A stretch of 64,000 nt of DNA, taken from assembly GCF_019656655.1 (NCBI RefSeq), contig NZ_BPMV01000001.1, forward strand, positions 930,001 to 994,000, in the 5' to 3' direction. The notes below the pieces were generated by a model that saw only the letters and a list, made by a program, of their open reading frames with translations, did no database searches and had not been told where the DNA came from. The DNA comes from Tsukamurella sp. TY48 (lineage in GTDB: Bacteria; Actinomycetota; Actinomycetes; Mycobacteriales; Mycobacteriaceae). Both the position numbers and the translations under genes were made by a program. Of the stretch, positions 51,340-64,000 are shown one piece after another; position 1 is the first letter of the stretch; every line of letters begins with the position of its first letter.

Positions 51340-51800
51340 CGGATCGGCTCCCTCTTCATGGTGTACGCATCGGCACCGGACGGCCGGTAGTAATTCTTCC
51401 GCGTGCCGACGGTGACGAATCCGTTGCGCTCGTACAAGTTTCGGGCGGTGTCGTTGTCAGTGCGCACCTCCAGGAAGACGGCGCCGCCGTGCTTGTCGGC
51501 ATCGTCGAGCAGTCGCCGCAGCAGGGCGTAGCCGATGCCCCGGCCCTGGTACCGCGGATCGACCCCGATGGTGTGCACCTCGGACTCGGGGAAGAAGGTG
51601 TTGCCCAGCAGGCCGAGTCCGGCGTAGCCGATCAGTTCCCCGCCGTCACGAGCGGCGTAGAACCGGACGTCCTTGTGATCCGCCTCGGAGCGGAACGCCG
51701 AAGCGGGCCAGGGATTGTCGCCGGGGAACAGGATCTTCTCCAGGTCGGCGCAGCGCTCGGCATCGTCGGCGCGGAGCGCATCGATCACGATGTCAGCCAC
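51336..51800 (-). CDS. rimI: Ribosomal-protein-alanine N-acetyltransferase RimI
   Basis: This 154-residue GNAT protein has the acetyl-CoA motif [20 protein letters not shown] (about 80-100) and [18 protein letters not shown]. RimI acetylates the N-terminus of ribosomal protein S18 in E. coli; the target here may be wider. The start GTG 51800 overlaps the tsaB stop by 8 bp, in the tsaB-rimI-tsaD operon. Confidence 0.93.
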
Positions 51801-52368
51801 GCGAGGCCATCTCCACGGCGTCGGGCCGGCGCAGGTACAGCGGCACCAGGGGCTGCGGCGGGGTGCCGATCAGGTGGCGCCCCACGGCCACCAGGGTCTG
51901 CGGTGTGGGCGAGCCCTCGACCACGGTGGCACCCGCAGCGTCCAGTTCGGCGGGCTTGATCACGCCCGGCCCCTCCGTGCGTTCGCCGTCGCGGTAGCGG
52001 GCCCAGTAGACCTCCTTGCGGCGGGCGTCGGTCACGACGAGGACATCGCCGGGATGCCCGTGCGCGATCGCGTCCAGGCTGCACACACCGTGCACCTCGA
52101 TGCCGAGCGCATCGCCGAAGGCGGCGCCGGTGGCCATACCGACGCGGAGTCCGGTGAACGGTCCCGGGCCGCAGCCCACGATCACGGCGCCGAGATCGGA
52201 GCGCTGCAGCCCGGATTCGGCGAGGCATTCGAGGATGAACGGGGTGAGCACCTCGGCGTGACCGCGGGAGTGCGTCTGTCCGCGCTCAGCGAGTACCCGG
52301 CCGGATTCGAGGTCGACGATGCCCACCGTGAGCGCCGGTGTGGCGGTATCGAGGGCGAGCACGAACAT
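51793..52368 (-). CDS. tsaB: tRNA threonylcarbamoyladenosine biosynthesis protein TsaB
   Basis: This 191-residue protein has the ASKHA N-terminal lobe (LALDTATPALTVGIVDLESG) and the dimerisation segment VIVGCGPGPFTGLRVGMATG. TsaB is the scaffold of the TsaD-TsaB-TsaE complex. TAACCT lies 6 nt before the ATG (leaderless). In mycobacteria tsaE lies directly upstream; here a plus-strand gene and the giant gene separate them. Confidence 0.95.
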   Translation of the reverse strand: MFVLALDTATPALTVGIVDLESGRVLAERGQTHSRGHAEVLTPFILECLAESGLQRSDLGAVIVGCGPGPFTGLRVGMATGAAFGDALGIEVHGVCSLDAIAHGHPGDVLVVTDARRKEVYWARYRDGERTEGPGVIKPAELDAAGATVVEGSPTPQTLVAVGRHLIGTPPQPLVPLYLRRPDAVEMASRG

Positions 52369-52508
52369 AGGTGCAGGTTACCGCCTCGGGGCCGCCCGCC
52401 CCGAATCCGTGAGCTGGGCGGCATCCGGTTCGTTCGGGTCGACGGTGCGCCCACCTTCGTCTCGCTGGACCGGCTGACACTGTCAGTGGAGGGGCGCACG
52501 ATGGGGAC

Positions 52509-53138
52509 ATGAGCAACGAATCCCTCGACGATTGGGCTCCGCTCGTGCGGGGCCTGCGCACCCGCTTCCGCACCGGCGATTTCGCCACCGGCCTCGCCCT
52601 GGTCACCGAGTTCGCCGCCGCGGCGGAGGAGGCGAACCACCATCCCGATCTCACGCTCACCTACGGCCACGTGGACGTATTGCTCTACAGCCACGATGCG
52701 GGCCGGGTCACCGATCGGGACCGCACCCTCGCGGCGCGGTACTCAGAGCTGGCGCGCGCCCGCTCCGTCCCCGCCGAGCCGCTGGCCCTCACCGTCGTCG
52801 AGCTCGGCCTCGACACGGCGGACCAAGCGGTGATCGCGCCGTTCTGGGCGGCCGTACTGCGGCTCGAGGCGAAGCAGGGGAAGTACGAGGAGTTCGAGAT
52901 CCGCGCGCATGACGCCGACGCCGTGCTGTGGTTCCAGGGCACCGAACCGCACGACCCACCGCGGCAGCGGTTCCACCTGGACGTGTGGGTCGATCCACGC
53001 GAGGCGCAGCCGCGGATCGCCGCCGCGCTGGCGGCCGGCGGGCGCCTGGTCACCGACGCCTACGCACCGTCGTTCTGGGTGCTCGCGGACCCCGACGGCA
53101 ATCACGCCTGCATCTGCACCGTGACCGGGCGGGACTGA
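52509..53138 (+). CDS. PCD (pterin-4a-carbinolamine dehydratase)-VOC fusion protein
   Basis: This 209-residue protein fuses two modules. Residues 1-80 carry the PCD signature: EEANHHPDLTLTYGHVDVLL (His44, His45, Pro46). Residues 95-209 form a VOC half-barrel (FWAAVLRLEAKQGKYEEFEI, then RFHLDVWVDPREAQPRIAAA and FWVLADPDGNHACI). Similar fusions occur in actinobacteria, but the reaction is unknown. It lies between tsaB and tsaE on the opposite strand, 12 bp from the giant gene stop. Confidence 0.85.
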   Translation: MSNESLDDWAPLVRGLRTRFRTGDFATGLALVTEFAAAAEEANHHPDLTLTYGHVDVLLYSHDAGRVTDRDRTLAARYSELARARSVPAEPLALTVVELGLDTADQAVIAPFWAAVLRLEAKQGKYEEFEIRAHDADAVLWFQGTEPHDPPRQRFHLDVWVDPREAQPRIAAALAAGGRLVTDAYAPSFWVLADPDGNHACICTVTGRD

Positions 53139-53150
53139 CCGGGGCCCTGC

Positions 53151-56100
53151 TCACTCGGTCGTATCCACGACCGCGGTCCGCAGATCGTCCCGTTGCGCCG
53201 GCTCCTCCTTGTGGTCGAAGGGATCGGCGTCCGGGGTGTCGTCCTTGGGGACGGCCTTCGTGGAACCACTGCCCGAGGTGCTCGAATCGGCACTGCCCTT
53301 GCCGGGGCTGCTTCCACCCGGGGTGACTCCGCCCGAACTGCCGGTGGGCGACTTGGGCGGATCGGCGACACTCGGGTCGGCCGTCGTGGCGTCGTGAGCC
53401 TTGTCGGTGCTGCCGCCGGTGTCGGACTTGGTCGGCGCCTCTCGCTGCGTGCTGTCCGCGGGTGTCGTGGGCTTGTCCGCCCCGCCGGCCCGAGCCGCAT
53501 CGTTCGCCGCCTTCTCCGCAGCCGCGGCCCGGTCGGCAGCATCGGCCGCGGCCTTCTCCGCGGCCGCACGGTCGGCAGCGGAGCGCTCCGCACCGTCGCG
53601 GTCCACCGGGGGTTTCGACGCCTCCTGGGCCGCCTTGTCCGCGGCATCCTTGGCCTTGGCCGCATCGGCCGCGGCGGCCTTGGCCTCCGCATCGGCCTGA
53701 GCGGCGTCCCGCGCGGCATCGGAGGCGGCCTTATCGGCGGCAGCGTGCTCGGCGGCTTCCTTATCGGCATTGGCGCGCTCGGCCGCAGCCTTATCCGCAG
53801 CCTCCTTCGCCGCCGCTGAGGAATCCGCAGCCGCCTTATCCGCCGCAGCCTTATCCGTGTTCGCCTTCTCGACCGCGGCCTCCGCCGCTGCCGCCTTATC
53901 AGCGGCTTCCTTCGCCGCCGCCGACGAATCCGCAGCCGCCTTATCCGCCGCAGCCTTGTCTGCGTTCGCCTTATCCGCGGACTCCTTCGCCGCCGCTGCC
54001 TGCTGTGCCGCTGCGGCCTCCTTCGCAGCCGCGGCGTCCTTCGCTTCCGCGGCGCGATCCGCGGCGGCCGAGCTGTCGGCCAGCGCCTGGTCCGCCTTGT
54101 CCTTGGCGGCCCGCGCCTCGTCGGCTGCTGCGGCGGACCGGTCCGCCGCTTCCTTGTCGGCAGCCGCCTTCTGCGTGGCGTCCGCTGCGGCCGCGTCCGC
54201 CTGCTTCTGCGCCTCAGCGGCATCGGCGGACGACTTCTCCGCCGCCTTCTGCGCCTCGGCCGACTTGTCCGCCGCCGCCTGGTCGGCAGCCGCCTTGTCC
54301 TGCGCTTCCTTCGCCTTCTCGGCGGCCTTATCCTGTGCCGCAGTGCTGTCCGCGGCCGACTTCTCAGCGGCGTCGCGGGCCTGCTCGGACTCGTCGGCCT
54401 TCGCCTTATCGGCGGCGGCCTTCTCGGATGCGGCCTTGGCCTCATCGGCGGCGTCCGCAGCGGCCTTATCGGCGGCCTTACGTTCGTCGGCGATCTTGCT
54501 CGCGTCCGATGCCGCTTGGTCTGCTGCGGCCTTATCCGCGGCAGCCTTATCGGAGGCGTTCTTGGCCGAGTCGGCCTTCTCCGCGGCCGCCTTATCCGCC
54601 GCCGCGCGGTCCTCCGCAGCCTTATCGGCAGTGGCCTTGTCCGCCGCCGCCTTATCGGACGCCGCCTTGGACGCGTCCGCGGCAGCCTTCTCGGCTGCGG
54701 CCTTATCGGAGGCGTCCTTCGCCGCATCGGCGGCGGCCTGATCAGCGGACGACTTATCGGCGGCGGCCCGGTCGGCGGCAGCCTGATCAGCGGCCGCCTT
54801 GTCCGCGGCGGCCTTCGAGGCCGCGTCCGCATCGGAGCTGGCCTTCGCCGCGTCCGAGGCCGCCTTATCGGCTGCGGCCTTCTCTGCGGCGGATTGATCC
54901 GAGGCAGCCTTGGCCGCGTCGGCCTTATCGGCGGCGTCCTTACGTGCGGCATCGGCCCGCTCCTGCGCCGCAGCAGCATCCGCCGCAGCCTTATCCGCCG
55001 CATCCTTCGCCGCCGCAGCCTCATCCGACTCCGACTTCGCCTTCGCCGCCGCATCCGCAGCAGCCTTATCCGCCGCAGCCTTCTCCGACGCCTCCTTATC
55101 GGCAGCCGCAGCAGCATCACGCGCCTTCGCAGCCTCATCGCTCGTACTCGCCGCATCCGCAGCGGCCTTATCCGCCGCCGCCTTGTCCGCAGCCGCCTTA
55201 TCCGCCGCCGACTTATCAGCCGCGGCCTTATCCGCCGCCGCCTTATCCGCAGCTTCCTTATCCGCCGCCGACTTATCCGCAGCAGCCTTATCGTCGGCAG
55301 CCTTCTTCGACGCCGCATCCGACGCCGCAGCAGCATCCGCCGCAGCCCTCGCCGCATCCGCCGCATCCTTATCCGCAGCCGACTTATCCGCCGCAGCCCG
55401 ATCCGACGCCGCCTTATCGTCCGCAGCCTTCTTCTCCGCAGCATCCCGCGCAGCCGCAGCATCCGACGCAGCCTGCGCCGCATCCGACGCCGACTTATCC
55501 GCAGCCGACTTATCCGCCGCCGCCTTATCAGCAGCAGCCTTCGCATCCGCCGCCCGATCCGCCGCCGCCTTCGACGCCGCATCCGCATCCGAACTGGCCT
55601 TCGCCGCATCCGCAGCCGCCTGATCCGCCGCCGACTTATCCGCCGCAGCCTTATCCGCCGCAGCCCGATCCGACGCCGCCTGATCCGCAGCCTTCGACGC
55701 CGCATCCGCCTTCGCCGCAGCATCCTTCTCCGCAGCATCACGCTCCGCAGCAGCCTTCTCCGCCGCAGCCTTCGTATCCGCCGCCTTCTGCGCCGCCGCA
55801 GCATCCACATCCGTCTTACCGGCCACATCAGCCGCCGCAGCATCCGCCGCCCGCTGCGCCTGATCCGCCTCCGCCGCAGCCTTATCCGCCGCAGCCCGCG
55901 CCTCATCCGCAGCCGACTTATCCGCCGCAGCCTTATCCGCAGCCGCCTTCGCAGCAGCGTCCGCCTGCTCCTGCGCCGCCTTAGCATCCGCCGCAGCCTT
56001 ATCCGCAGCATCCTTCGCAGCCGCAGCCTCATCCGCCGCCGCCTTATCAGCAGCAGCCTTCTCCGACGCCGCCTTCGCAGCAGCATCCGCCTGCTCCTGC

Positions 56101-59100
56101 GCCGCAGCAGCATCCGCAGCAGCCTTATCCGCCGCATCCTTCGCCGCCGCAGCCGCATCCGACTCCGACTTCGCCTTCGCCGCCGCATCCGCCGCAGCCT
56201 TATCCGCCGCCGCCTTCTCCGCCGCCTCCTTATCGGCAGCCGCAGCAGCATCACGCGCCTTCGCAGCCTCATCGCTCGTACTCGCCGCATCCGCAGCGGC
56301 CTTATCCGCCGCCGCCTTGTCCGCAGCCGCCTTATCCGCCGCCGACTTATCAGCCGCGGCCTTATCCGCCGCCGCCTTATCCGCAGCTTCCTTATCCGCA
56401 GCCGACTTATCCGCAGCAGCCTTATCGTCGGCAGCCTTCTTCGACGCCGCATCCGACGCCGCAGCAGCATCCGCCGCAGCCCTCGCCGCATCCGCCGCAT
56501 CCTTATCCGCCGACGCCTTATCCGCCGCAGCCCGATCCGACGCCGCCTTATCGTCCGCAGCCTTCTTCTCCGCAGCATCCCGCGCAGCCGCAGCATCCGA
56601 CGCAGCCTGCGCCGCATCCGACGCCGACTTATCCGCAGCCGACTTATCCGCCGCCGCCTTATCAGCAGCAGCCTTCGCATCCGCCGCCCGATCCGCCGCC
56701 GCCTTCGACGCCGCATCCGCATCCGAACTGGCCTTCGCCGCATCCGCAGCCGCCTGATCCGCCGCCGACTTATCCGCCGCAGCCTTATCCGCCGCAGCCC
56801 GATCCGACGCCGCCTGATCCGCAGCCTTCGACGCCGCATCCGCCTTCGCCGCAGCATCCTTCTCCGCAGCATCACGCTCCGCAGCAGCCTTCTCCGCCGC
56901 AGCCTTCGTATCCGCCGCCTTCTGCGCCGCCGCAGCATCCACATCCGTCTTACCGGCCACATCAGCCGCCGCAGCATCCGCCGCCCGCTGCGCCTGATCC
57001 GCCTCCGCCGCAGCCTTATCCGCCGCAGCCCGCGCCTCATCCGCAGCCGACTTATCCGCCGCAGCCTTATCCGCAGCCGCCTTCGCAGCAGCGTCCGCCT
57101 GCTCCTGCGCCGCCTTAGCATCCGCCGCAGCCTTATCCGCAGCATCCTTCGCAGCCGCAGCCTCATCCGCCGCCGCCTTATCAGCAGCAGCCTTCTCCGA
57201 CGCCGCCTTCGCAGCAGCATCCGCCTGCTCCTGCGCCGCAGCAGCATCCGCAGCAGCCTTATCCGCCGCATCCTTCGCCGCCGCAGCCTCATCCGACTCC
57301 GACTTCGCCTTCGCCGCCGCATCCGCAGCAGCCTTATCCGCCGCAGCAGCGGCTTCGGCGATGGCCTCGCGCTCCGCCTTCGTCGCATCGGCGGCGGCCT
57401 GATCCGCGGCTGCCTTGTCCGCCGCGGCCCGGGCGGCCGCATCGGGGTCGTTCGGGTTCTTCGCGGCATCGGCGGCGGACTTGTCCGCCTTGTCCTTAGC
57501 CGCAGCGGCCTTGTCCTTGGCCGCCTTCACCGCGGTGTCGTCGTAGTCGACATTGCCCACGGCCGCAGCGGAGGCGTCCGCCGCCTTATCCGCGGCGGCG
57601 GACTTGTCGGCCGCATCGGCGGCGGCCTTATCAGCCTGATCCTTCGCCTTGTTCGCCTTGTCGAGGGCGTCGCGCGCGCCGGCTTCCGCGGCGATCGCGG
57701 CCTGCCGGTCCTTGTCCGCCGCGGCCTGGTTGGCCGCGGCCTTATCGGAGGCCGCCTTCGCGGCGTCGGCATTGGCGTCGGCCTGGTCCTGCGCCTTCTT
57801 GGCCGCATCGAGGTTGGACTGCGCCTTCTTGATCCGCTGCAGCAGGATCTTGTCGAGCGCGTTGTAGATGAGGCCCTTCTCGGCGTCGTCCAGTTCCTTC
57901 TGGCGCTGGTCCACCAGATCCTGGGCCGCCTTGGCGTCGCTGTCGGCCTTCTTGCTGGCGTTAGCCGCGTCCGCGGCCTTCGCATCCGCCTCCGCGGCGG
58001 CGGCCTTCGCCTGCTCGATGGCCGCGACCTGCGCCTGAGCCTCCTGCTGCGCCTTCGCCGCGTCCGATGCGGCCTGATCCGCGCTGGCCTTATCGGATGC
58101 CGCCTTCGCTGCCGTCTGCGCATCGTCCAGCGCCTTGTTGGCCGCGATGGAGGTCGCCTGCGCGGTCGCACTGTCTGCGGCCGCTTGATCGGCCGTCGCC
58201 TTATCGGCTGCAGCCTTATCGGCGGCCGTCTTCGCCGCTGCCTCGGTCTCGCTCTTGGTCTGCGCGGCCTGATCCGCCGCGCGCTTGGCGTTCTCCTCGT
58301 CGGCGGCCGATTTGTCGGCGGCCGCGCGGCTCGATGCCGCGTTGTCGGCGGCGGTCTTCGCCGCTGCATCCGCCGCCGCGCGCTGATCCGCTGCCCCGTC
58401 TGCCGCCGACTTCTGCGCTGCCGCATCGGAGGCCGACTTCTGGGCTGCGGCCTCGGCTGCGCTCGCCTTGCCCGCGGCGTCCGAGCTCGCCGCGGCCTTA
58501 TCCGCAGCGGCCTTATCCGCCGCCGCCTTCGCCTGCTCCGCCTGGGCCTTCTCGGCGCTCGCCGTGTCCGCTGCGGCCTTGGCATCCGCAGCGGCCTGCG
58601 CCGCCGCCTGGTCTGCGGCGGTCTTCGCAGCAGTGGCCTCGTCCGCCGCGGCCTTCGCCGCATCCGCGTCGGACTTCGCCTGATCCGATTGGCCCGCCTT
58701 GTCGGAGGCGGCCTTCTCCTTGTCGCCCGCGGCCTGAGCGGCGGCGGCCTTGTCATCGGCCGCCTGCTTCGCATCGGCCGCGGTCTTCTCCGCCGCGGCT
58801 TGCGATGCGGCGGCGGCATCCGCCTCGGACTGTTGCCGCGCGGCGTTATCCGCAGCGGCCTGAGCAGCGGCCTCGCGGTCCTTGGCCGCCTGCGCCGCAT
58901 CGGCGGCGTCCTGCCGAGCCTTCTCGGCATCCGCAGCGGACTTGTCCGAGGCATCCTTCGCCGCCGCGGCCCGGTCCGCGGCCGCCTGTGCTGCAGCAGC
59001 TTTATCCGACGCGGCCTGTGCCGCATCCGCCGCCGCCTTGGCAGCCGAATCCTTCGCCGCCGCAGAGCCGTCCGCCGTCGCACGATCCGCCGCAGCCTTA

Positions 59101-62100
59101 TCCGACGCCGCCTTCGCCGCCGCATCCGCATCGGACCGGGCCTTCGCCGCCTCCGCAGCCGACTTCTCCGACGCCTCCTGCGCCGCCCGAGCCTTATCGG
59201 CGGCTGCTGCCGCCTCGCTCGCCCGGTCCGCGGCCACCTTGGCGGCGGCATCCTTCTGCGCCGCGGCATCCGCCGCCGCCGCACTACTCGCCGATGCCTG
59301 TTCGGCGGCCTTCGCGGCAGACTCCGCGGACGCCGCCGCGGCGGCCGAGTTGCTCGCCGCCGCTGCCGCCGCAGCCGCCGTCTCCGCCGCGTTCTTGTCG
59401 GCAGCCGCCTTCGCGGCATCGGCGGAAGCCTTGTCCGCCTGCGACTTCTCCGCCGCTGCCTGATCAGCAGTCGCCTTATCGGCGGCGGCCTTCGCCGAGG
59501 CCTCCGACTGGTCCCGAATCGTCACCGCATCGGCGGCGGACTTCTGGGCCGCCGCCTCATCGGCCGCAGACTTCTGCGCTGCGGCGTCCGCTGCGCTCGC
59601 CTTGTCCGCGGCGTCCGAACTGGCCGCGGCCTTCTCAGCAGCGGCCTTATCCGCGGCGTCCTTGGCCTGTTGCGCTTGCGCCTTCTCGGCGTTCGCCTGG
59701 TCTGCGGCCGCCTTGGCATCCGAGGCCGCCTGCGCCGCGGCCTCATCCGCCGCAGTCTTGGCGGCGGCGGCATCGTCGGCCGCGGCCTTGGCCGCATCCG
59801 CATCAGTCTTCGCCTGGGCCGACTGATCCGCCTTATCAGCGGCCGCCTTCGCCGTGTCCGAGGCCGCCTGCGCCGCGGCATCCGCCTGGGACTGATTGCC
59901 GGCGGCGTCCGCGGCGGCCTTCTCGGCAGCTGCTTGATCGGCGGCTGCCTTATCCGAGGCCGCCTGCTTGCGGTCCGCCTCATCGGCGGCGGACTTCGCC
60001 GCCGCATCGCGGTCCTGCGCGATCTTCGCGGCGTCAGCGGCCGCCTTCTCCGCGGCCGCCTGATCGGCGGCAGACTTGTCCGCCGTGTCCTTCGCCGCCG
60101 CGGCGGCATCCGCCGCGGCCTTCGAAGCGGCGTCCTTATCCGAGGCCACCGACGCCGCATCCGCCGCCGCCTTGGCAGCCGAATCCTTCGCCGCCGCAGA
60201 GCCGTCCGCCGTCGCACGATCCGCCGCAGCCTTATCCGACGCCGCCTTCGCCGCCGCATCCGCATCGGACCTGGCCTTCGCCGCCTCCGCAGCCGACTTC
60301 TCCGACGCCTCCTGCGCCGCCCGAGCCTTATCGGCCGCGGCGGAGGCATCGGAGGCCTTGTCGGCCGCGTCCTTCGCGGCGGCGTCCTTCTGCGCCGCGG
60401 CATCCGCCGCCGCCGCACTACTCGCCGCGGCTTCCTCCGCCGCCTTCGCGGTCGCGTCCGCCGTGACCGCCGCAGCGGCCGAGTTGCTCGCGGCATCTGC
60501 TGCGGCAGCGTTCTTCTCGGCCGCGTCCTTATCGGCCTGCGCCTTCGCATTGTCGGCGGCGGACTTATCCGCCTGTGCCTGGTCCGCCGCCGCCTTATCG
60601 GCGGCCGCCTTGTCCGAGGCGGCCTTCGCGGCGGACTCCGCCTGATCGCTCGCCTGCGCCGCGTCCGACGCCGCCTTCTGCGCCGCCGACGCATCGTCGG
60701 CGGACTTCTGTGCAGCAGCCTCCGCAGCATCGGCCTTCGCCGCGGCGTCGGTGCTGGCCGCGGCCTTGTCCGCGGCCGCCTTGTCCGCGTCTTCGCGCGC
60801 CTTGGTCGCGGCATCGCTGTTCGCCGCGGCCTTGTCGGCGGCGTCCTTCGACGCGGCTGCCGCATCGTCGGCGGTCTTCTGGTCGGCCGCCTTATCCGCG
60901 GCAGCCTTCTCGGCCGCATCCGCAGCCTTCTGCGCATCCGCCTGCTCCGCCGCGGATTTATCCGCCACGGCCTTGTCGGCGGCGGCCTTATCGTCGGCGG
61001 CCTTCTGGTCGGCCGCCTTATCCGCGGCAGCCTTCTCGGCCGCATCCGCAGCCTTCTGCGCATCCGCCTGCTCGGCGGCGGACTTATCTGCGGCGGCTTT
61101 ATCCGCCGCTGCCTTCTCGGAGGCTGCCTCGGCGGCCTTCTCGGCCTCCTCGTGCTTCGGATCGTTCTGCGCCGCTTCGGCGGCCTTCGCCGCCTCCTCG
61201 GCCGCGGCCGCGGACTTGTCCGCCGCCGCCTTATCGGAGGCCGCCTTATCCGCGGCGGCCTTCTCGGCATCGTCCGCGCGCTGGCGGTCCGCGGCGGCAT
61301 CGGCCGCGGCCTTATCCGCCGCCGCCTTATCCGCTGCGGACTTGTCCGCAGCGGCCTTATCGGCCGCGGCCTTCTGGTCCGCGGCATCCTTCGCTGCGGC
61401 GCGATCGGCGGCTTCCTTCTGTGCCGCGGCCTTGTCGGCGGCAGCCTTCTCCGCTGCGGCGGAGGCCTTCTCGGATTCCGCCTGCGCCTCGGAAAGCCGG
61501 TCCGCCGCCTCCTTCGCGGCCGCCGACTTGTCGGCTGCTTCCTTATCGGCCGCTGCCTTGTCCGAGGCCGCCTTCTCGGCAGCGGCGGAGGCCTTCTCGG
61601 CGGCATCCTTGGCCGCGGCGAGATCGTCCGCCGCGCTCTTCGCGGCGGCGTCCTTCTCGGCCGCGTTCTTCTCGGCAGCGGCCTGATCGGCAGCGGCCTT
61701 CTCGGCGGCGGCCTCCGCGTCCTTCGCAGCCTTGTCCGCATCGAGGAAACGGCGGGCGGCGTCGGCTGCCTTCTGCGCTGCGGCGTCCGAGCTCTTGTTG
61801 GCCGCATCCGCGGCAGCGCGGGCGCGCTCGGCGTCGGCGGCGGCGCTGTTGGCCGCGATGCGAGCTGCGATGGCGTTCGCCCGCGCGATCAGGGTGTAGT
61901 CCGCGATCCGGGGACCGACGGGATCCACCGGGCGGCCGTCGATCACGGCACTGATCGCACCGATGCCGATGACGCGTGGGCCCAGCGCACCGTCGTAGTC
62001 GCCCTTGGGGCTGGTGCAGTCGATCTCCATCGGGCTGAGGATCGGGCTGATGCCGGGCTGTACGGGACGCTTGACGTAGCAGCCCGGGACCACCTCGGTG

Positions 62101-62375
62101 ATGCCGTTGCCGCCGGGGGCCGGGGTGCGCGGTCCCGCACCGTTCCCGCCGTTCGCGACCCCGGTGGCGCCGGCCGTGGCCGGACTCCCGCCCTGGCCCG
62201 CACCGGTCGCCGCCGAACCGGCCGCCGGGCCGGCCTGGTCGGTGGCCGCGGTCGGTGGCGCGTTTCGCGTATCACCGTCCGCCGTGCTCTGATTCCCGCC
62301 GTTGGTCCCACACGCACTTGCGGTGATCAGACCCACGACGGCGACACCTGCGACTACTGCCCGCGACTTAGTCAT
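53151..62375 (-). CDS. Giant alanine-rich helical-repeat lipoprotein, about 3,074 aa
   Basis: The protein begins with a lipoprotein signal (VVAGVAVVGLITASAC, Cys22 predicted lipidated), then a Gly/Thr-rich linker (23-90), a small domain with Cys99 and Cys120 (about 91-165), about 2,780 residues of Ala-rich repeats based on K/D/E-A-A-A-D motifs, and a disordered Gly/Ser/Pro tail (last 120). No cysteine was seen in the repeat. A non-repeat island (LIYNALDKILLQRIKK, near 1500) breaks it. Nothing resembles LPXTG. ATG 62375 has AAAGG 9 nt upstream; the frame also allows a TTG 9 nt earlier. Function is unknown; an extended surface rod, spacer, tether or adhesin is inferred from shape only. Confidence 0.85.
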   Translation of the reverse strand: MTKSRAVVAGVAVVGLITASACGTNGGNQSTADGDTRNAPPTAATDQAGPAAGSAATGAGQGGSPATAGATGVANGGNGAGPRTPAPGGNGITEVVPGCYVKRPVQPGISPILSPMEIDCTSPKGDYDGALGPRVIGIGAISAVIDGRPVDPVGPRIADYTLIARANAIAARIAANSAAADAERARAAADAANKSSDAAAQKAADAARRFLDADKAAKDAEAAAEKAAADQAAAEKNAAEKDAAAKSAADDLAAAKDAAEKASAAAEKAASDKAAADKEAADKSAAAKEAADRLSEAQAESEKASAAAEKAAADKAAAQKEAADRAAAKDAADQKAAADKAAADKSAADKAAADKAAADAAADRQRADDAEKAAADKAASDKAAADKSAAAAEEAAKAAEAAQNDPKHEEAEKAAEAASEKAAADKAAADKSAAEQADAQKAADAAEKAAADKAADQKAADDKAAADKAVADKSAAEQADAQKAADAAEKAAADKAADQKTADDAAAASKDAADKAAANSDAATKAREDADKAAADKAAASTDAAAKADAAEAAAQKSADDASAAQKAASDAAQASDQAESAAKAASDKAAADKAAADQAQADKSAADNAKAQADKDAAEKNAAAADAASNSAAAAVTADATAKAAEEAAASSAAAADAAAQKDAAAKDAADKASDASAAADKARAAQEASEKSAAEAAKARSDADAAAKAASDKAAADRATADGSAAAKDSAAKAAADAASVASDKDAASKAAADAAAAAKDTADKSAADQAAAEKAAADAAKIAQDRDAAAKSAADEADRKQAASDKAAADQAAAEKAAADAAGNQSQADAAAQAASDTAKAAADKADQSAQAKTDADAAKAAADDAAAAKTAADEAAAQAASDAKAAADQANAEKAQAQQAKDAADKAAAEKAAASSDAADKASAADAAAQKSAADEAAAQKSAADAVTIRDQSEASAKAAADKATADQAAAEKSQADKASADAAKAAADKNAAETAAAAAAAASNSAAAAASAESAAKAAEQASASSAAAADAAAQKDAAAKVAADRASEAAAAADKARAAQEASEKSAAEAAKARSDADAAAKAASDKAAADRATADGSAAAKDSAAKAAADAAQAASDKAAAAQAAADRAAAAKDASDKSAADAEKARQDAADAAQAAKDREAAAQAAADNAARQQSEADAAAASQAAAEKTAADAKQAADDKAAAAQAAGDKEKAASDKAGQSDQAKSDADAAKAAADEATAAKTAADQAAAQAAADAKAAADTASAEKAQAEQAKAAADKAAADKAAASSDAAGKASAAEAAAQKSASDAAAQKSAADGAADQRAAADAAAKTAADNAASSRAAADKSAADEENAKRAADQAAQTKSETEAAAKTAADKAAADKATADQAAADSATAQATSIAANKALDDAQTAAKAASDKASADQAASDAAKAQQEAQAQVAAIEQAKAAAAEADAKAADAANASKKADSDAKAAQDLVDQRQKELDDAEKGLIYNALDKILLQRIKKAQSNLDAAKKAQDQADANADAAKAASDKAAANQAAADKDRQAAIAAEAGARDALDKANKAKDQADKAAADAADKSAAADKAADASAAAVGNVDYDDTAVKAAKDKAAAAKDKADKSAADAAKNPNDPDAAARAAADKAAADQAAADATKAEREAIAEAAAAADKAAADAAAKAKSESDEAAAAKDAADKAAADAAAAQEQADAAAKAASEKAAADKAAADEAAAAKDAADKAAADAKAAQEQADAAAKAAADKAAADKSAADEARAAADKAAAEADQAQRAADAAAADVAGKTDVDAAAAQKAADTKAAAEKAAAERDAAEKDAAAKADAASKAADQAASDRAAADKAAADKSAADQAAADAAKASSDADAASKAAADRAADAKAAADKAAADKSAADKSASDAAQAASDAAAARDAAEKKAADDKAASDRAAADKASADKDAADAARAAADAAAASDAASKKAADDKAAADKSAADKEAADKAAADKAAADKSAADKAAADKAAADKAAADAASTSDEAAKARDAAAAADKEAAEKAAADKAAADAAAKAKSESDAAAAAKDAADKAAADAAAAQEQADAAAKAASEKAAADKAAADEAAAAKDAADKAAADAKAAQEQADAAAKAAADKAAADKSAADEARAAADKAAAEADQAQRAADAAAADVAGKTDVDAAAAQKAADTKAAAEKAAAERDAAEKDAAAKADAASKAADQAASDRAAADKAAADKSAADQAAADAAKASSDADAASKAAADRAADAKAAADKAAADKSAADKSASDAAQAASDAAAARDAAEKKAADDKAASDRAAADKSAADKDAADAARAAADAAAASDAASKKAADDKAAADKSAADKEAADKAAADKAAADKSAADKAAADKAAADKAAADAASTSDEAAKARDAAAAADKEASEKAAADKAAADAAAKAKSESDEAAAAKDAADKAAADAAAAQERADAARKDAADKADAAKAASDQSAAEKAAADKAASDAAKASSDADAASKAAADKAAADQAAADRAAADKSSADQAAADAAKDASDKAAAEKAAADASKAASDKAAADKATADKAAEDRAAADKAAAEKADSAKNASDKAAADKAAADQAASDASKIADERKAADKAAADAADEAKAASEKAAADKAKADESEQARDAAEKSAADSTAAQDKAAEKAKEAQDKAAADQAAADKSAEAQKAAEKSSADAAEAQKQADAAAADATQKAAADKEAADRSAAAADEARAAKDKADQALADSSAAADRAAEAKDAAAAKEAAAAQQAAAAKESADKANADKAAADKAAADSSAAAKEAADKAAAAEAAVEKANTDKAAADKAAADSSAAAKEAADKAAAERANADKEAAEHAAADKAASDAARDAAQADAEAKAAAADAAKAKDAADKAAQEASKPPVDRDGAERSAADRAAAEKAAADAADRAAAAEKAANDAARAGGADKPTTPADSTQREAPTKSDTGGSTDKAHDATTADPSVADPPKSPTGSSGGVTPGGSSPGKGSADSSTSGSGSTKAVPKDDTPDADPFDHKEEPAQRDDLRTAVVDTTE
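54961..57346 (-). repeat. Tandem 1134-bp repeat units (2.1 near-identical copies) in giant gene
   Basis: Unit 1 spans 54961-56094, unit 2 56095-57228, and a 118-bp third partial copy runs to 57346. Anchors repeat exactly 1134 bp apart (e.g. CTCGTACTCG at 55141 and 56275; GACTTATCCGCCGCCGCC at 55507 and 56641). Differences are a few substitutions. 1134 bp is 378 codons, so the frame is kept. Codon choice in this block (GAT-AAG-GCT-GCG-GCG) differs from flanking parts of the same gene, which use more GAC and GCC. Confidence 0.93.
55965..56216 (-). repeat. 126-bp sub-repeat inside the 1134-bp unit
   Basis: CTGCTCCTGCGCCG occurs at 55965 and 56091, 126 bp apart, as part of a 42-residue repeat (KDAADKAAAD at the start of each). 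The same 126-bp spacing reappears at 60877 and 61003 (TTCTGGTCGGCCGCCTTATC). 1134 is nine times 126. Confidence 0.85.
59020..60334 (-). repeat. Older 1134-bp periodicity: near-identical 181-bp blocks
   Basis: Positions 59020-59200 and 60154-60334 match with one difference, exactly 1134 bp apart. Diverged landmarks keep the same period: GCGGCGTC at 58474, 59608 and 60742, and GACTTCTG at 58435, 59569 and 60703. So the gene seems to have grown by repeated duplication of a 378-codon unit, some old and some recent. Confidence 0.88.
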
Positions 62376-62557
62376 CTTCTGCAACCTTTACTACACAGAC
62401 TTGAAGATAGACTTTACCCATACTTCCGATTTTTGCAGCCCCGAATAGGACATATCACCGCAGGAAACGTGAACTGCGACAAAACTGTCCCGACGCGACA
62501 TTCAGAGGTCATACGTCGTTGGCCGTACGGTTGCCTCGGCGCGGGTACCGAGGCGGT
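62376..62557. promoter_or_regulatory. AT-richer promoter region of the giant gene, with tsaE terminator
   Basis: This 182-bp gap between the giant gene start and the tsaE stop is richer in A/T than the surroundings. No -35/-10 pair is convincing. It holds a tsaE-side hairpin listed next. The giant gene is thus probably transcribed from its own promoter rather than by read-through from tsaE. Confidence 0.5.
62533..62554. terminator. Hairpin just after tsaE
   Basis: Arms GCCTCGG and CCGAGGC around an 8-nt loop lie 3 bp past the tsaE stop. No U-tract. Confidence 0.6.
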
Positions 62558-62998
62558 TCAGGCCTCGACCCACCGCCACTGCGCGGTGCGCACATCGGTG
62601 CCCTCGGCACGACGCAGCCGCACCATCAGGTGCCGATCGGTGAGGCGCTCGGCCACACCCTCGCCCCACTCGACGACGACGACGCAGTCCTCGAGGTCGG
62701 TATCGAGGTCGAGTGCGTCCAGATCGTCGAGCCCGCCCAGGCGGTAGGCGTCGACGTGCACCAGACCGGGCCTGCCCGGCGCACCCGGACGGTGCTCGCG
62801 AGCGATGATGAAGGTGGGGCTCGAGACCCTGCCCTGTACGCCGAGTCCGGCGGCGATCCCCCTGGTCAGCGCCGTCTTACCGGCGCCGAGCGGACCGTCG
62901 AGGATCACCAGATCGCCCGCGGCGAGGCCGGCCGCCAGTTCCCGGCCCAGCGCCTCGGTGTCCTCCACCTCGGGCAGCGTCCGCTCTTCGCCGGTCAT
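62558..62998 (-). CDS. tsaE: tRNA threonylcarbamoyladenosine biosynthesis ATPase TsaE
   Basis: This 146-residue P-loop ATPase has Walker A GPLGAGKTALTRG (Lys41), SSPTFIIAREH and VHVDAYRLGG, the TsaE signature. It drives the TsaD-TsaB complex. The start ATG 62998 overlaps the stop of the upstream hydrolase (ATGA). tsaB and tsaE are split here by about 10 kb, unlike the contiguous mycobacterial order. Confidence 0.95.
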   Translation of the reverse strand: MTGEERTLPEVEDTEALGRELAAGLAAGDLVILDGPLGAGKTALTRGIAAGLGVQGRVSSPTFIIAREHRPGAPGRPGLVHVDAYRLGGLDDLDALDLDTDLEDCVVVVEWGEGVAERLTDRHLMVRLRRAEGTDVRTAQWRWVEA

Positions 62999-64000
62999 CG
63001 CGGCACCGCCCGGTCGACGAGCGCCGCCACCGCGAGCGCCACCCGGTCGGCGGCCTCGAGGATCAGCATGTGCCCGGTGTTCGCGAGCACGATCAGCTCG
63101 GTGTCCAGCTCCTCGGCCATCGCCTTCGACTTGCGCAGCGGGGTCATCCAGTCGTGATCGCCGCACACCACCGATGTCGCGATGTCGCGCAGGATGGGCA
63201 GCGCGTCCTGTTCGTCGTAGCTCTCCAGGGCGGCCATGAATCCAGCCGTGGTGTCGAGCGGGGCCGACAGGCTCATCGTCGACGAGAAGTGGGTCATGGT
63301 GGCGCTGCGGTCGCCGCGACCGTAGGCGCCGGCGGTGACGAAGGGTTCGGCCAGCGGTTTGACCGCGTCGCGTCCGCGGCCCACCACCGAGGGCAGGAAC
63401 CGCACCGCGGCGCGGAACATGTCGAGCACCGGATTACGCAGCGCGGCAGCCAGACCGGAGTCGGTGAGCGCATGCGAGGCGGTTCCCAGGAGTGCCGCTC
63501 CCACCACCCGGGAACCGATCAGGTCCGGGTGCCCGGTGGCGAGCGCGCAGATCGCCATGCCGCCCATCGAGTGCCCCACCAGGACCACCGGGCCGGTCGG
63601 CACCAGGGCGTCCATCACGGTGGCGATGTCGTCGCCCAGCAGTGCGACGGTGCTCTGCTCGGGCGTGCACGAGCCCGAGTCGCCGTGCCCGCGGCAGTCC
63701 GGGAAGACCATCCGGACCCCGTCGCCCCAGCGCCTCTGCAGGGCGTTGCGCACCAGCACCCAGCTCGCGGACCGGAGCGTGAACCCGTGGATGAACAGCA
63801 CCGTGATCGGGGCATCGCGCGGGCCGACCTCGCGGACGTGCAGCGGCACACCGTCGGAGCTCATGACGATCGTCTCCCGGTCGGACCGGAAGGTGAGGTC
63901 GTCGGCGCTGATCGGGTCGTCGTCGACCCGCACGCCGAGCGCGCGGCGGGCGGCGGCGAGTCCCGTCAGCGTGGCGACAGCGACCGACGTGCCGAGACCG
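62995..64000 (-). CDS. Alpha/beta hydrolase, N-terminal end outside window
   Basis: The frame is open to the window edge; about 335 residues are visible. The visible N-terminal end (VAVATLTGLAAARRA) may be the end of a TM or signal helix. The rest has oxyanion motif FIHGFTL, nucleophile elbow VGHSMGG, catalytic acid in CGDHDWMTP and His in NTGHMLI. It overlaps tsaE by 4 bp. A hydrolase next to tsaE and upstream alr is common in actinobacteria (from memory); substrate unknown. Confidence 0.85.
   Translation of the reverse strand, partial: GLGTSVAVATLTGLAAARRALGVRVDDDPISADDLTFRSDRETIVMSSDGVPLHVREVGPRDAPITVLFIHGFTLRSASWVLVRNALQRRWGDGVRMVFPDCRGHGDSGSCTPEQSTVALLGDDIATVMDALVPTGPVVLVGHSMGGMAICALATGHPDLIGSRVVGAALLGTASHALTDSGLAAALRNPVLDMFRAAVRFLPSVVGRGRDAVKPLAEPFVTAGAYGRGDRSATMTHFSSTMSLSAPLDTTAGFMAALESYDEQDALPILRDIATSVVCGDHDWMTPLRKSKAMAEELDTELIVLANTGHMLILEAADRVALAVAALVDRAVPR

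Follow-up and report, generated by a model that had tools for sequence, protein, structure and literature searches.

Repeat proteins usually change length freely. Among long helical proteins, the central domain of TolA is an Ala/Lys-rich periplasmic helix tethered to the inner membrane, and the Alacoil is antiparallel with an Ala core; the Alacoil and Ala-zipper cases known to us are short. For the arms of SMC proteins, the available text of PMC5344682 describes a long-range length constraint, with natural lengths spaced about 100 aa apart. According to the available text of PMC12863079, the Apilactobacillus kunkeei proteins Giant1–5 are extracellular and have 3,000–8,000 aa, Giant1–3 consist of parallel alpha-helical repeats, Giant5 is one long single helix, and Giant3 is predicted to be about 0.2 µm long.

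In this study, we analysed a window of 64,000 nucleotides (the whole stretch of DNA, to which all coordinates refer unless another locus is named) from Tsukamurella sp. TY48, whose genome comprises 4.37 Mb in two contigs. With slightly more confidence than doubt, we believe that a giant exported protein encoded here is an antiparallel, Ala-based coiled-coil hairpin, with its arms paired roughly in register, which most likely serves as a tethered surface stalk or spacer. In the openly licensed literature, no description of this protein or of such an extracellular antiparallel hairpin was found.

Results

The giant gene and its surroundings

The initial annotation had placed a 9.2-kb lipoprotein gene with two Cys and an Ala/Asp/Lys-rich product at 53151..62375, and this was borne out. 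The open reading frame, on the minus strand, begins with the ATG at 62375, ends with the stop at 53151, and gives a protein of 3,074 aa (Ala 47%, Asp 14%, and Lys 11%), with LITASAC, C99 and C120 in place (Table 1). TTG 62384 is an alternative start, and by eye, AAAGG lies 9 bases upstream of the ATG. The mark of a bacterial lipoprotein, judged by eye rather than with a predictor, was present in residues 1–22, which end in LITASAC with Cys22 and are kept in the T. paurometabola ortholog; the dN/dS of the signal peptide between the two proteins was 0.03 across 22 codons. Ala at position -3 is a less usual residue of a lipobox. Cys22 is probably lipidated, and a linker of about 70 residues separates it from the two-Cys region. 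The rod proper covers residues ~169–2950 (~2,780 residues).

Table 1. Features of the giant protein and their positions in the window
Feature	Position	Strand	Basis or remark
Signal peptide and lipobox LITASAC, Cys22 (residues 1–22)	62310..62375	minus	By eye; G004 95% identical
Two-Cys region (residues 93–165; C99 and C120, 21 apart), common to paralog family B	61881..62099	minus	Alignments A1, A5
Rod-start motif RIADYTLIARANAIAARIAANSA (residues 156–178), conserved	61842..61910	minus	Present also in paralog family B
Arm 1 (residues 164–1500, 1337 aa)	57876..61886	minus	42-residue register, landmarks
Older 378-aa (9x42) duplication in arm 1, both copies (residues ~528–1321)	58413..60794	minus	77% nt identity, ~413 aa
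Central hydrophobic hinge/tip, AEKGLIYNALDKILLQRIKK and flanks (residues 1488–1530)	57786..57914	minus	Hydrophobic tip in all 6 proteins
Arm 2 (residues 1517–2921; 1421 from hinge residue 1501)	53613..57827	minus	42-residue register, landmarks
VGNVDYDD ... NPND motifs (residues 1606–1643), ~106 and 139 residues past the hinge	57447..57560	minus	Conserved
Recent 378-aa (9x42) duplication in arm 2, both copies (residues ~1678–2473)	54957..57344	minus	99% nt identity, ~420 aa
Local 105-bp (35-aa) tandem	53782..54001	minus	TRF
PPVDR motif and last Ala-rich stretch (residues 2922–2963), base of arm 2	53487..53612	minus	PVD[RK] in 5 of 6 proteins; the sixth is IS-interrupted
Pro/Ser/Gly-rich C-terminal tail, probably disordered (residues 2964–3074)	53154..53486	minus	Sequence

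The searches of the whole protein against Pfam and NCBIfam gave no fitting family. The sole Pfam match, Extensin_1, scored 23 bits against a gathering score of 105 and was rejected as a compositional chance match. The hinge region had no match in Pfam, and neither the hinge profile nor a 210-aa rod segment matched any PDB sequence. A scan for promoters and terminators gave no promoter-like site, and terminators were not above shuffle.

By Pfam matches, the gene is flanked by tsaE (62558–63166) and by a gene at 51793–52368 that matches TsaD and that we take to be tsaB. The tsaE and tsaB matches were present in all 16 Tsukamurella genomes, ~2.7–10.2 kb apart by coordinates. The interval between them (51793–63166; loci L054–L068) is a variable site and lacks the giant gene in 14 of the 16 genomes; no giant Ala-rich ORF was among the five longest ORFs of each of these 14 intervals. 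A fused pterin-4a-carbinolamine dehydratase and glyoxalase-like protein is encoded at 52509–53138 on the plus strand, convergent to the giant gene. An antisense ORF of 2,743 aa (54516–62747, plus strand) spans most of the giant gene. Because long antisense ORFs also overlie three of the four genes of the second family described below, this ORF is most likely a mere by-product of the GC-rich codons for Ala, Asp, and Lys.

Relatives of the giant protein

The proteins are labelled by family and genome: A_G000 is the giant protein of the own genome (G000), A_G004 is the T. paurometabola ortholog, and B_ denotes a second family. The initial annotation had held that absence from other strains would speak against its reading. 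A search with its N-terminus indeed left 14 of the 16 Tsukamurella genomes unmatched and found family A in G000 and G004 only, but the A gene of G004 is an intact ortholog of 2,309 aa. A profile of the N-terminus brought up a further family of giant genes, B, with matches in G000, G004, G005, and G007; their E-values (2e-5 to 8e-5) are weak, and we accepted them because the hinge bears them out. The hinge profile found A in G000 and G004, B in G000, G004, G005, and G007, and neither in the other 12 genomes, giving a total of six genes in 4 of 16 genomes. Some of the 12 absences may be assembly gaps, because several of these assemblies are drafts of 70–890 contigs; those in few contigs (1–9) that lack both families are G003, G008, G010, and G015.

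The B proteins are ordered as signal, two-Cys motif, Gly-rich stretch, rod-start ARAxAxxARIAA, rod, and Ser/Gly-rich tail (the tail in three of four). A Sec-type signal was present in three of the four, the frame of the G005 gene being cut by a TAG, and the two Cys of the C-Y-x-x-R motif were 21 residues apart in three of the four, the same spacing as in A. The G005 gene (G005:C1:1958209-1959120) has this one in-frame TAG in its N-terminal part, which may stem from a sequencing error or mark a true pseudogene. At L080 12180–12902 (minus strand), the Gly-rich GFGxG stretch of family B, ~150 residues long, lies between the two-Cys motif and the rod, which may be an alternative anchor in the mycolate layer. 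In the own-genome B gene (B_G000; G000:C1, L107 7365–8537, L080 below 2541), arm 2 is interrupted by an opposite-strand transposase gene (rve, HTH_Tnp_1), presumably of IS3 type, and rod-like and tail-like reading frames carry on past the insertion sequence (IS). In a tree of tsaE and tsaB, G000 and G004 fell together (support 0.976) and G007 and G005 fell elsewhere, so the distribution of B is patchy.

Among the genomes searched, the gene family has so far been found in Tsukamurella only, with no convincing member elsewhere. Beyond the genus, the hinge profile matched 1 of 385 genomes of the same taxonomic family, weakly (G340, E 8.5e-4), which we treated as chance, and of 394 genomes drawn across the class, the own genome alone matched at 1e-5. 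A rod query of 301 genomes of that family found G000, G004, and G005 alone at 1e-10 and missed G007, so it is insensitive. The N-terminal matches in G031, G169, G263, G298, and G319 (E 4e-5 to 6e-4) were attributed to chance, these being per-genome E-values over 401 genomes; these matches and that of G340 sit in frames of 338–1127 aa. A match in G001 was rejected, as by eye it is antisense to a different gene. Additional candidate matches occurred in G002 (E 9e-4) and as a second match in G000 (C2, E 6e-5). The scan of viral contigs gave no relative; nor did that of genome contigs, which is weak evidence of absence, as the T. paurometabola gene was missed too and near records were possibly omitted.

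Periodicity of the rod

The initial annotation had described repeat spacings of 105, 126, and 1134 bp and interpreted them as growth in heptad register. The 126-bp spacing agrees with several TRF arrays and with an identity of 0.433 at a lag of 42 residues, compared with 0.296 +/- 0.008 in shuffles of the whole protein. Folding at 42 residues gave a single register along the rod, weakest around the hinge. The 1134-bp spacing also stood, with an identity of 0.535 at lag 378 and GAATCC at 59047 and 60181 (1134 apart); it is not protein-wide, however, and comes from two separate duplications, one in each half. The 105-bp spacing was found where it had been reported (GAATCC at 53821 and 53926) but belongs to the local tandem at 53782–54001 alone. 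As a general unit, 35 residues were rejected, with an identity of 0.309 at lag 35 against the shuffle value of 0.296. Steps of 42, 378, and 504 residues agree with growth in heptad register, whereas indels of 27, 5, and 28 residues between relatives do not.

At short range, the period is 5/10 and not 7: the identities at lags 5 and 10 were 0.402 and 0.411, respectively, and that at lag 7 was 0.26, under the shuffle value. The heptad survives in another form, a stripe of Ala with a spacing of exactly 3.5 residues (42/12), which in the giant protein is second in strength to that at 5.25. In the Fourier analysis, Lys/Arg peaked at 42/17, and Ala peaked at 42/8, 42/12, and 42/9. Across the arms of the six proteins, with arm 2 taken from 145 residues past the hinge, the Ala power at 3.5 residues ranged from 8.2 to 81.8 in all but one of the 12 arms, the exception being arm 1 of the G004 ortholog with 3.3, and that at 3.6 residues was 0.2–3.3. 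The 3.5-residue stripe of a coiled coil was thus present in 11 of 12 arms, though the 5.25-residue harmonic exceeded it in 8 of 12. The short repeat pattern is the pentad AAADK, which sets Lys four residues ahead of the next Asp and so places opposite charges at i,i+4. In the giant protein, the opposite-charge i->i+4 pairs and the like-charge pairs numbered 395 and 31, compared with 161 +/- 11 and 169 +/- 11 in shuffles, respectively, and the opposite-charge pairs were 2.1–2.7 times expectation in all six proteins. Because of the Ala stripe and this charge pairing, we believe that the rod is likely a helix in a coiled coil. The view of the initial annotation, a lipid-anchored rod that is helical and probably a coiled coil, is therefore supported. 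A single unidirectional rod is not supported: a conserved hinge near the midpoint, which had been overlooked, near-equal arms, and equal duplications in both arms suggest a chain that folds back on itself.

Hinge and arms

All six proteins have a non-Ala hydrophobic segment with conserved flanks near the middle of the rod. The tip is GLIYNALDKILLQRI in both A proteins, and the B tips are GLLTPIINLLF, GLIGGLLEWLF, GSIFSPFWELL, and GVLTVILSLLF. Gly stands at the centre in all six, Gly-Gly in all four B proteins, and Pro at most 15 residues away in three of the four B proteins; by eye, the hydrophobic patch has Leu/Val at intervals of seven to eight residues to either side. Past the hinge, the six proteins carry VG..xYD[DN] at ~103–107 residues and NPND/HPDD at 136–140 residues.

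Taking arm 1 from the rod-start motif to the hinge and arm 2 from the hinge to the PVD motif, we compared the arms of the five proteins that have both ends. The lengths of arm 1 and arm 2 were 1337 and 1421 in A_G000, 959 and 1011 in A_G004, 959 and 1041 in B_G005, 1464 and 1547 in B_G007, and 932 and 1044 in B_G004. Arm 2 was longer every time, by 84, 52, 82, 83, and 112 residues, respectively. In B_G000, arm 1 has 1464 residues, and the chain is already 1783 residues past the hinge, with no PVD, where the frame ends in the IS, so these arms are unmatched. As this gene is broken, the constraint may be gone, or the rule of matched arms may be loose. A test of charges between the arms did not single out the hinge-centred register, and the best offsets differed among proteins.

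Paired duplications

At a cut of at least 80% nt identity over at least 100 aa, three of the six proteins had large duplications, each in both arms with equal lag: 378/378 in A_G000, 504/504 in B_G007, and 504/504 in B_G000, where 504 aa is 12x42 and arm 2 of B_G000 holds a further copy (lag 1008). The same cut gave none in A_G004, B_G004, and B_G005. Block edges were placed by maximum-likelihood fit, with the tip set 7 residues past the hinge residue. In A_G000, the blocks were mirrored about the tip, at 188–980 residues in arm 1 and 170–964 in arm 2, an agreement within 18 residues. In arm 1 and arm 2, respectively, the blocks lay at 583–1416 and 487–1501 in B_G007, and at 635–1371 and 470–1763 in B_G000; a laxer cut moved the arm-1 inner edges to 480 (B_G007) and 477 (B_G000). 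Because the copies are mosaics, the arm-1 edges of these two proteins are uncertain and depend on the cut. We do not claim an exact mirror in the B proteins: cut-dependent edges agreed within 6 residues, but the maximum-likelihood inner edges (583 vs 487 and 635 vs 470) did not.

A rough null model, devised after seeing the data, placed one tandem duplication of 1–15 units at random in each arm; it gave p 0.067 for equal size and p 0.0047 for equal size with inner edges within 20 residues, the latter for A_G000 only. We counted two independent cases, because the duplications of B_G000 and B_G007 may go back to a single event in an ancestor. For much of their extent, the copies in these two are more alike within than between species, which may reflect either separate duplication or gene conversion. 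The two duplications of A_G000 look unequal in age (77% identity in arm 1, 99% in arm 2), which means either that the arms were once unequal or that arm 2 was refreshed by gene conversion. An origin of the arms as direct repeats, as the cause of their equal length, was disfavoured because the A_G000 blocks match in distance from the hinge and not from the N-terminal ends of the arms.

Conservation between species

Gapless alignments of 819, 997, and 1000 aa were obtained between species at 57–63% identity, and 658 residues aligned without a gap between A and B at 47% identity. Outside the duplications, species differed mostly by substitutions and hardly by indels. In T. paurometabola, A has lost 27 and 5 residues from its arm 2 and B has lost 28 from its arm 1, with no equal loss in the opposite arm. 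The giant protein is under purifying selection, with dN/dS of 0.14–0.23 in three rod segments, at a dS of 1.1–1.6, near saturation.

Discussion

We propose in-register antiparallel pairing because the arms are near-equal about the hinge and the duplications are equal in both. After export and lipidation at Cys22, arm 1 would run outward for ~1,340 residues, the chain would turn at the short hydrophobic tip GLIYNALDKILLQRI, and arm 2 would return over ~1,400 residues and leave the C-terminal tail near the base. With a helix rise of 0.1485 nm per residue, the hairpin would measure ~200 nm, and that of the T. paurometabola ortholog, which has no duplication, ~142 nm, with a range of 142–217 nm for arms of 959–1464 residues. 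Large changes in length would survive if they were equal in both arms, at a similar height and in whole 42-residue units, and the sequences suggest that evolution keeps the two arms matched. The tip would be held away from the cell, where it might serve adhesion or aggregation of mycolate-coated cells, and family B would form the same hairpin behind its Gly-rich stretch, without the lipid anchor.

The pairing of the helices and the folding of one chain upon itself, both read from sequence, have to be weighed against other arrangements. Near-equal arms and mirrored duplications would equally be predicted by an antiparallel homodimer, in which straight ~400-nm rods pair head to tail about their centre as a double-ended fibre. 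However, the central Gly, the Pro, and the hydrophobic patch with spaced Leu/Val are as expected of a turn, and a fibre built of two lipid-anchored chains would be anchored at either end; with Gly and a hydrophobic tip in the middle and the anchor at one end, an intramolecular hairpin fits better, and we regard the dimer as distinctly unlikely. The strong i->i+4 ion pairs and the high Ala content would suit an isolated single alpha-helix (SAH) or a parallel coiled-coil rod that leaves the membrane with a flexible break in its middle, as would the longer arm 2 of the broken B_G000. But neither of these predicts near-equal arms or equal duplications, and an SAH has no need of an Ala stripe at exactly 3.5 residues, so this arrangement also seems unlikely. 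Low-complexity, mainly disordered filler produced by replication slippage, with the arm match a coincidence, would explain the composition, the tandem repeats, and the lack of a family match; against it stand the 819–1000 residues free of indels between species, the coherent 42-residue register, the low dN/dS, and the conserved hinge, and we consider it very improbable.

A different question is the role of the hairpin. The same structure could instead work within the envelope, as a linker in the periplasm or mycomembrane or as a gauge of width, in the manner of TolA, a role that overlaps with our main reading. It has a probable N-terminal lipid anchor, and its hydrophobic tip could dock into the outer (mycolate) membrane. 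Yet mycobacterial-type envelopes are several times thinner than 142–217 nm, so the hairpin would have to lie flat or protrude, and arm length varies by more than half among the proteins (932–1464). We therefore regard the linker as possible but doubtful. The role of a tethered surface stalk or spacer is most likely, since the hairpin would exceed the thickness of the envelope.

If the surface-stalk hairpin is true, it would be a giant extracellular antiparallel coiled-coil hairpin, a kind for which no description was found, an adjustable-length molecular ruler, a test case for the origin of compensating duplications, and a structure that opportunists with a mycolate coat may display on their surface. 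It would also be a natural experiment, as equal changes in two distant halves of one chain hint at a fold from sequence alone.

Comparison with known systems

As in SMC, Rad50, and MukB, a central hinge parts two long arms in the giant protein, and the arm lengths seem to be constrained over a long range. We hold it an even prospect that it is a secreted, membrane-tethered, SMC-shaped hairpin of ~0.2 µm, whose Ala-coiled-coil arms are kept matched in evolution via paired duplications that add equal numbers of 42-residue units to both, and which forms an adjustable-length surface stalk whose base is interchangeable, either a lipid anchor or a Gly-rich stretch. It differs from SMC in arms ~3–4.5 times longer than the 47–49 nm of SMC, in its 42-residue register, and in its signal peptide; its stripe is of Ala, whereas the SMC coiled coil has a Leu/Ile stripe. 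The whole protein had no match in Pfam or NCBIfam to the ABC ATPase head halves of SMC/Rad50, and its ends are the lipobox and two-Cys region and the Ser/Gly tail. For an SMC hinge or Rad50 zinc hook, the hinge gave no Pfam and no PDB match, and by eye the hinge alignment has no Cys. With TolA it shares an Ala/Lys-rich tethered helix, but it is several times longer and has a central hinge and a probable lipid anchor; Pfam and NCBIfam gave no match to TolA family domains. Giant1–5 belong to another phylum and are likened here by description only, the available text of their report making no mention of a central hinge or matched arms. The arms of the giant protein would have ~1,300 residues, in contrast to the short Alacoil and Ala-zipper cases. 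What would be shared with these is an Ala-core coiled coil; PMC3037368 deals with coiled coils of this kind. SAH (ER/K) domains, as the available text of PMC5347031 describes them, share dense salt bridges along a long helix, whereas in the giant protein the acidic residue is mostly Asp, about half of the residues are Ala, and an Ala stripe runs at exactly 3.5 residues.
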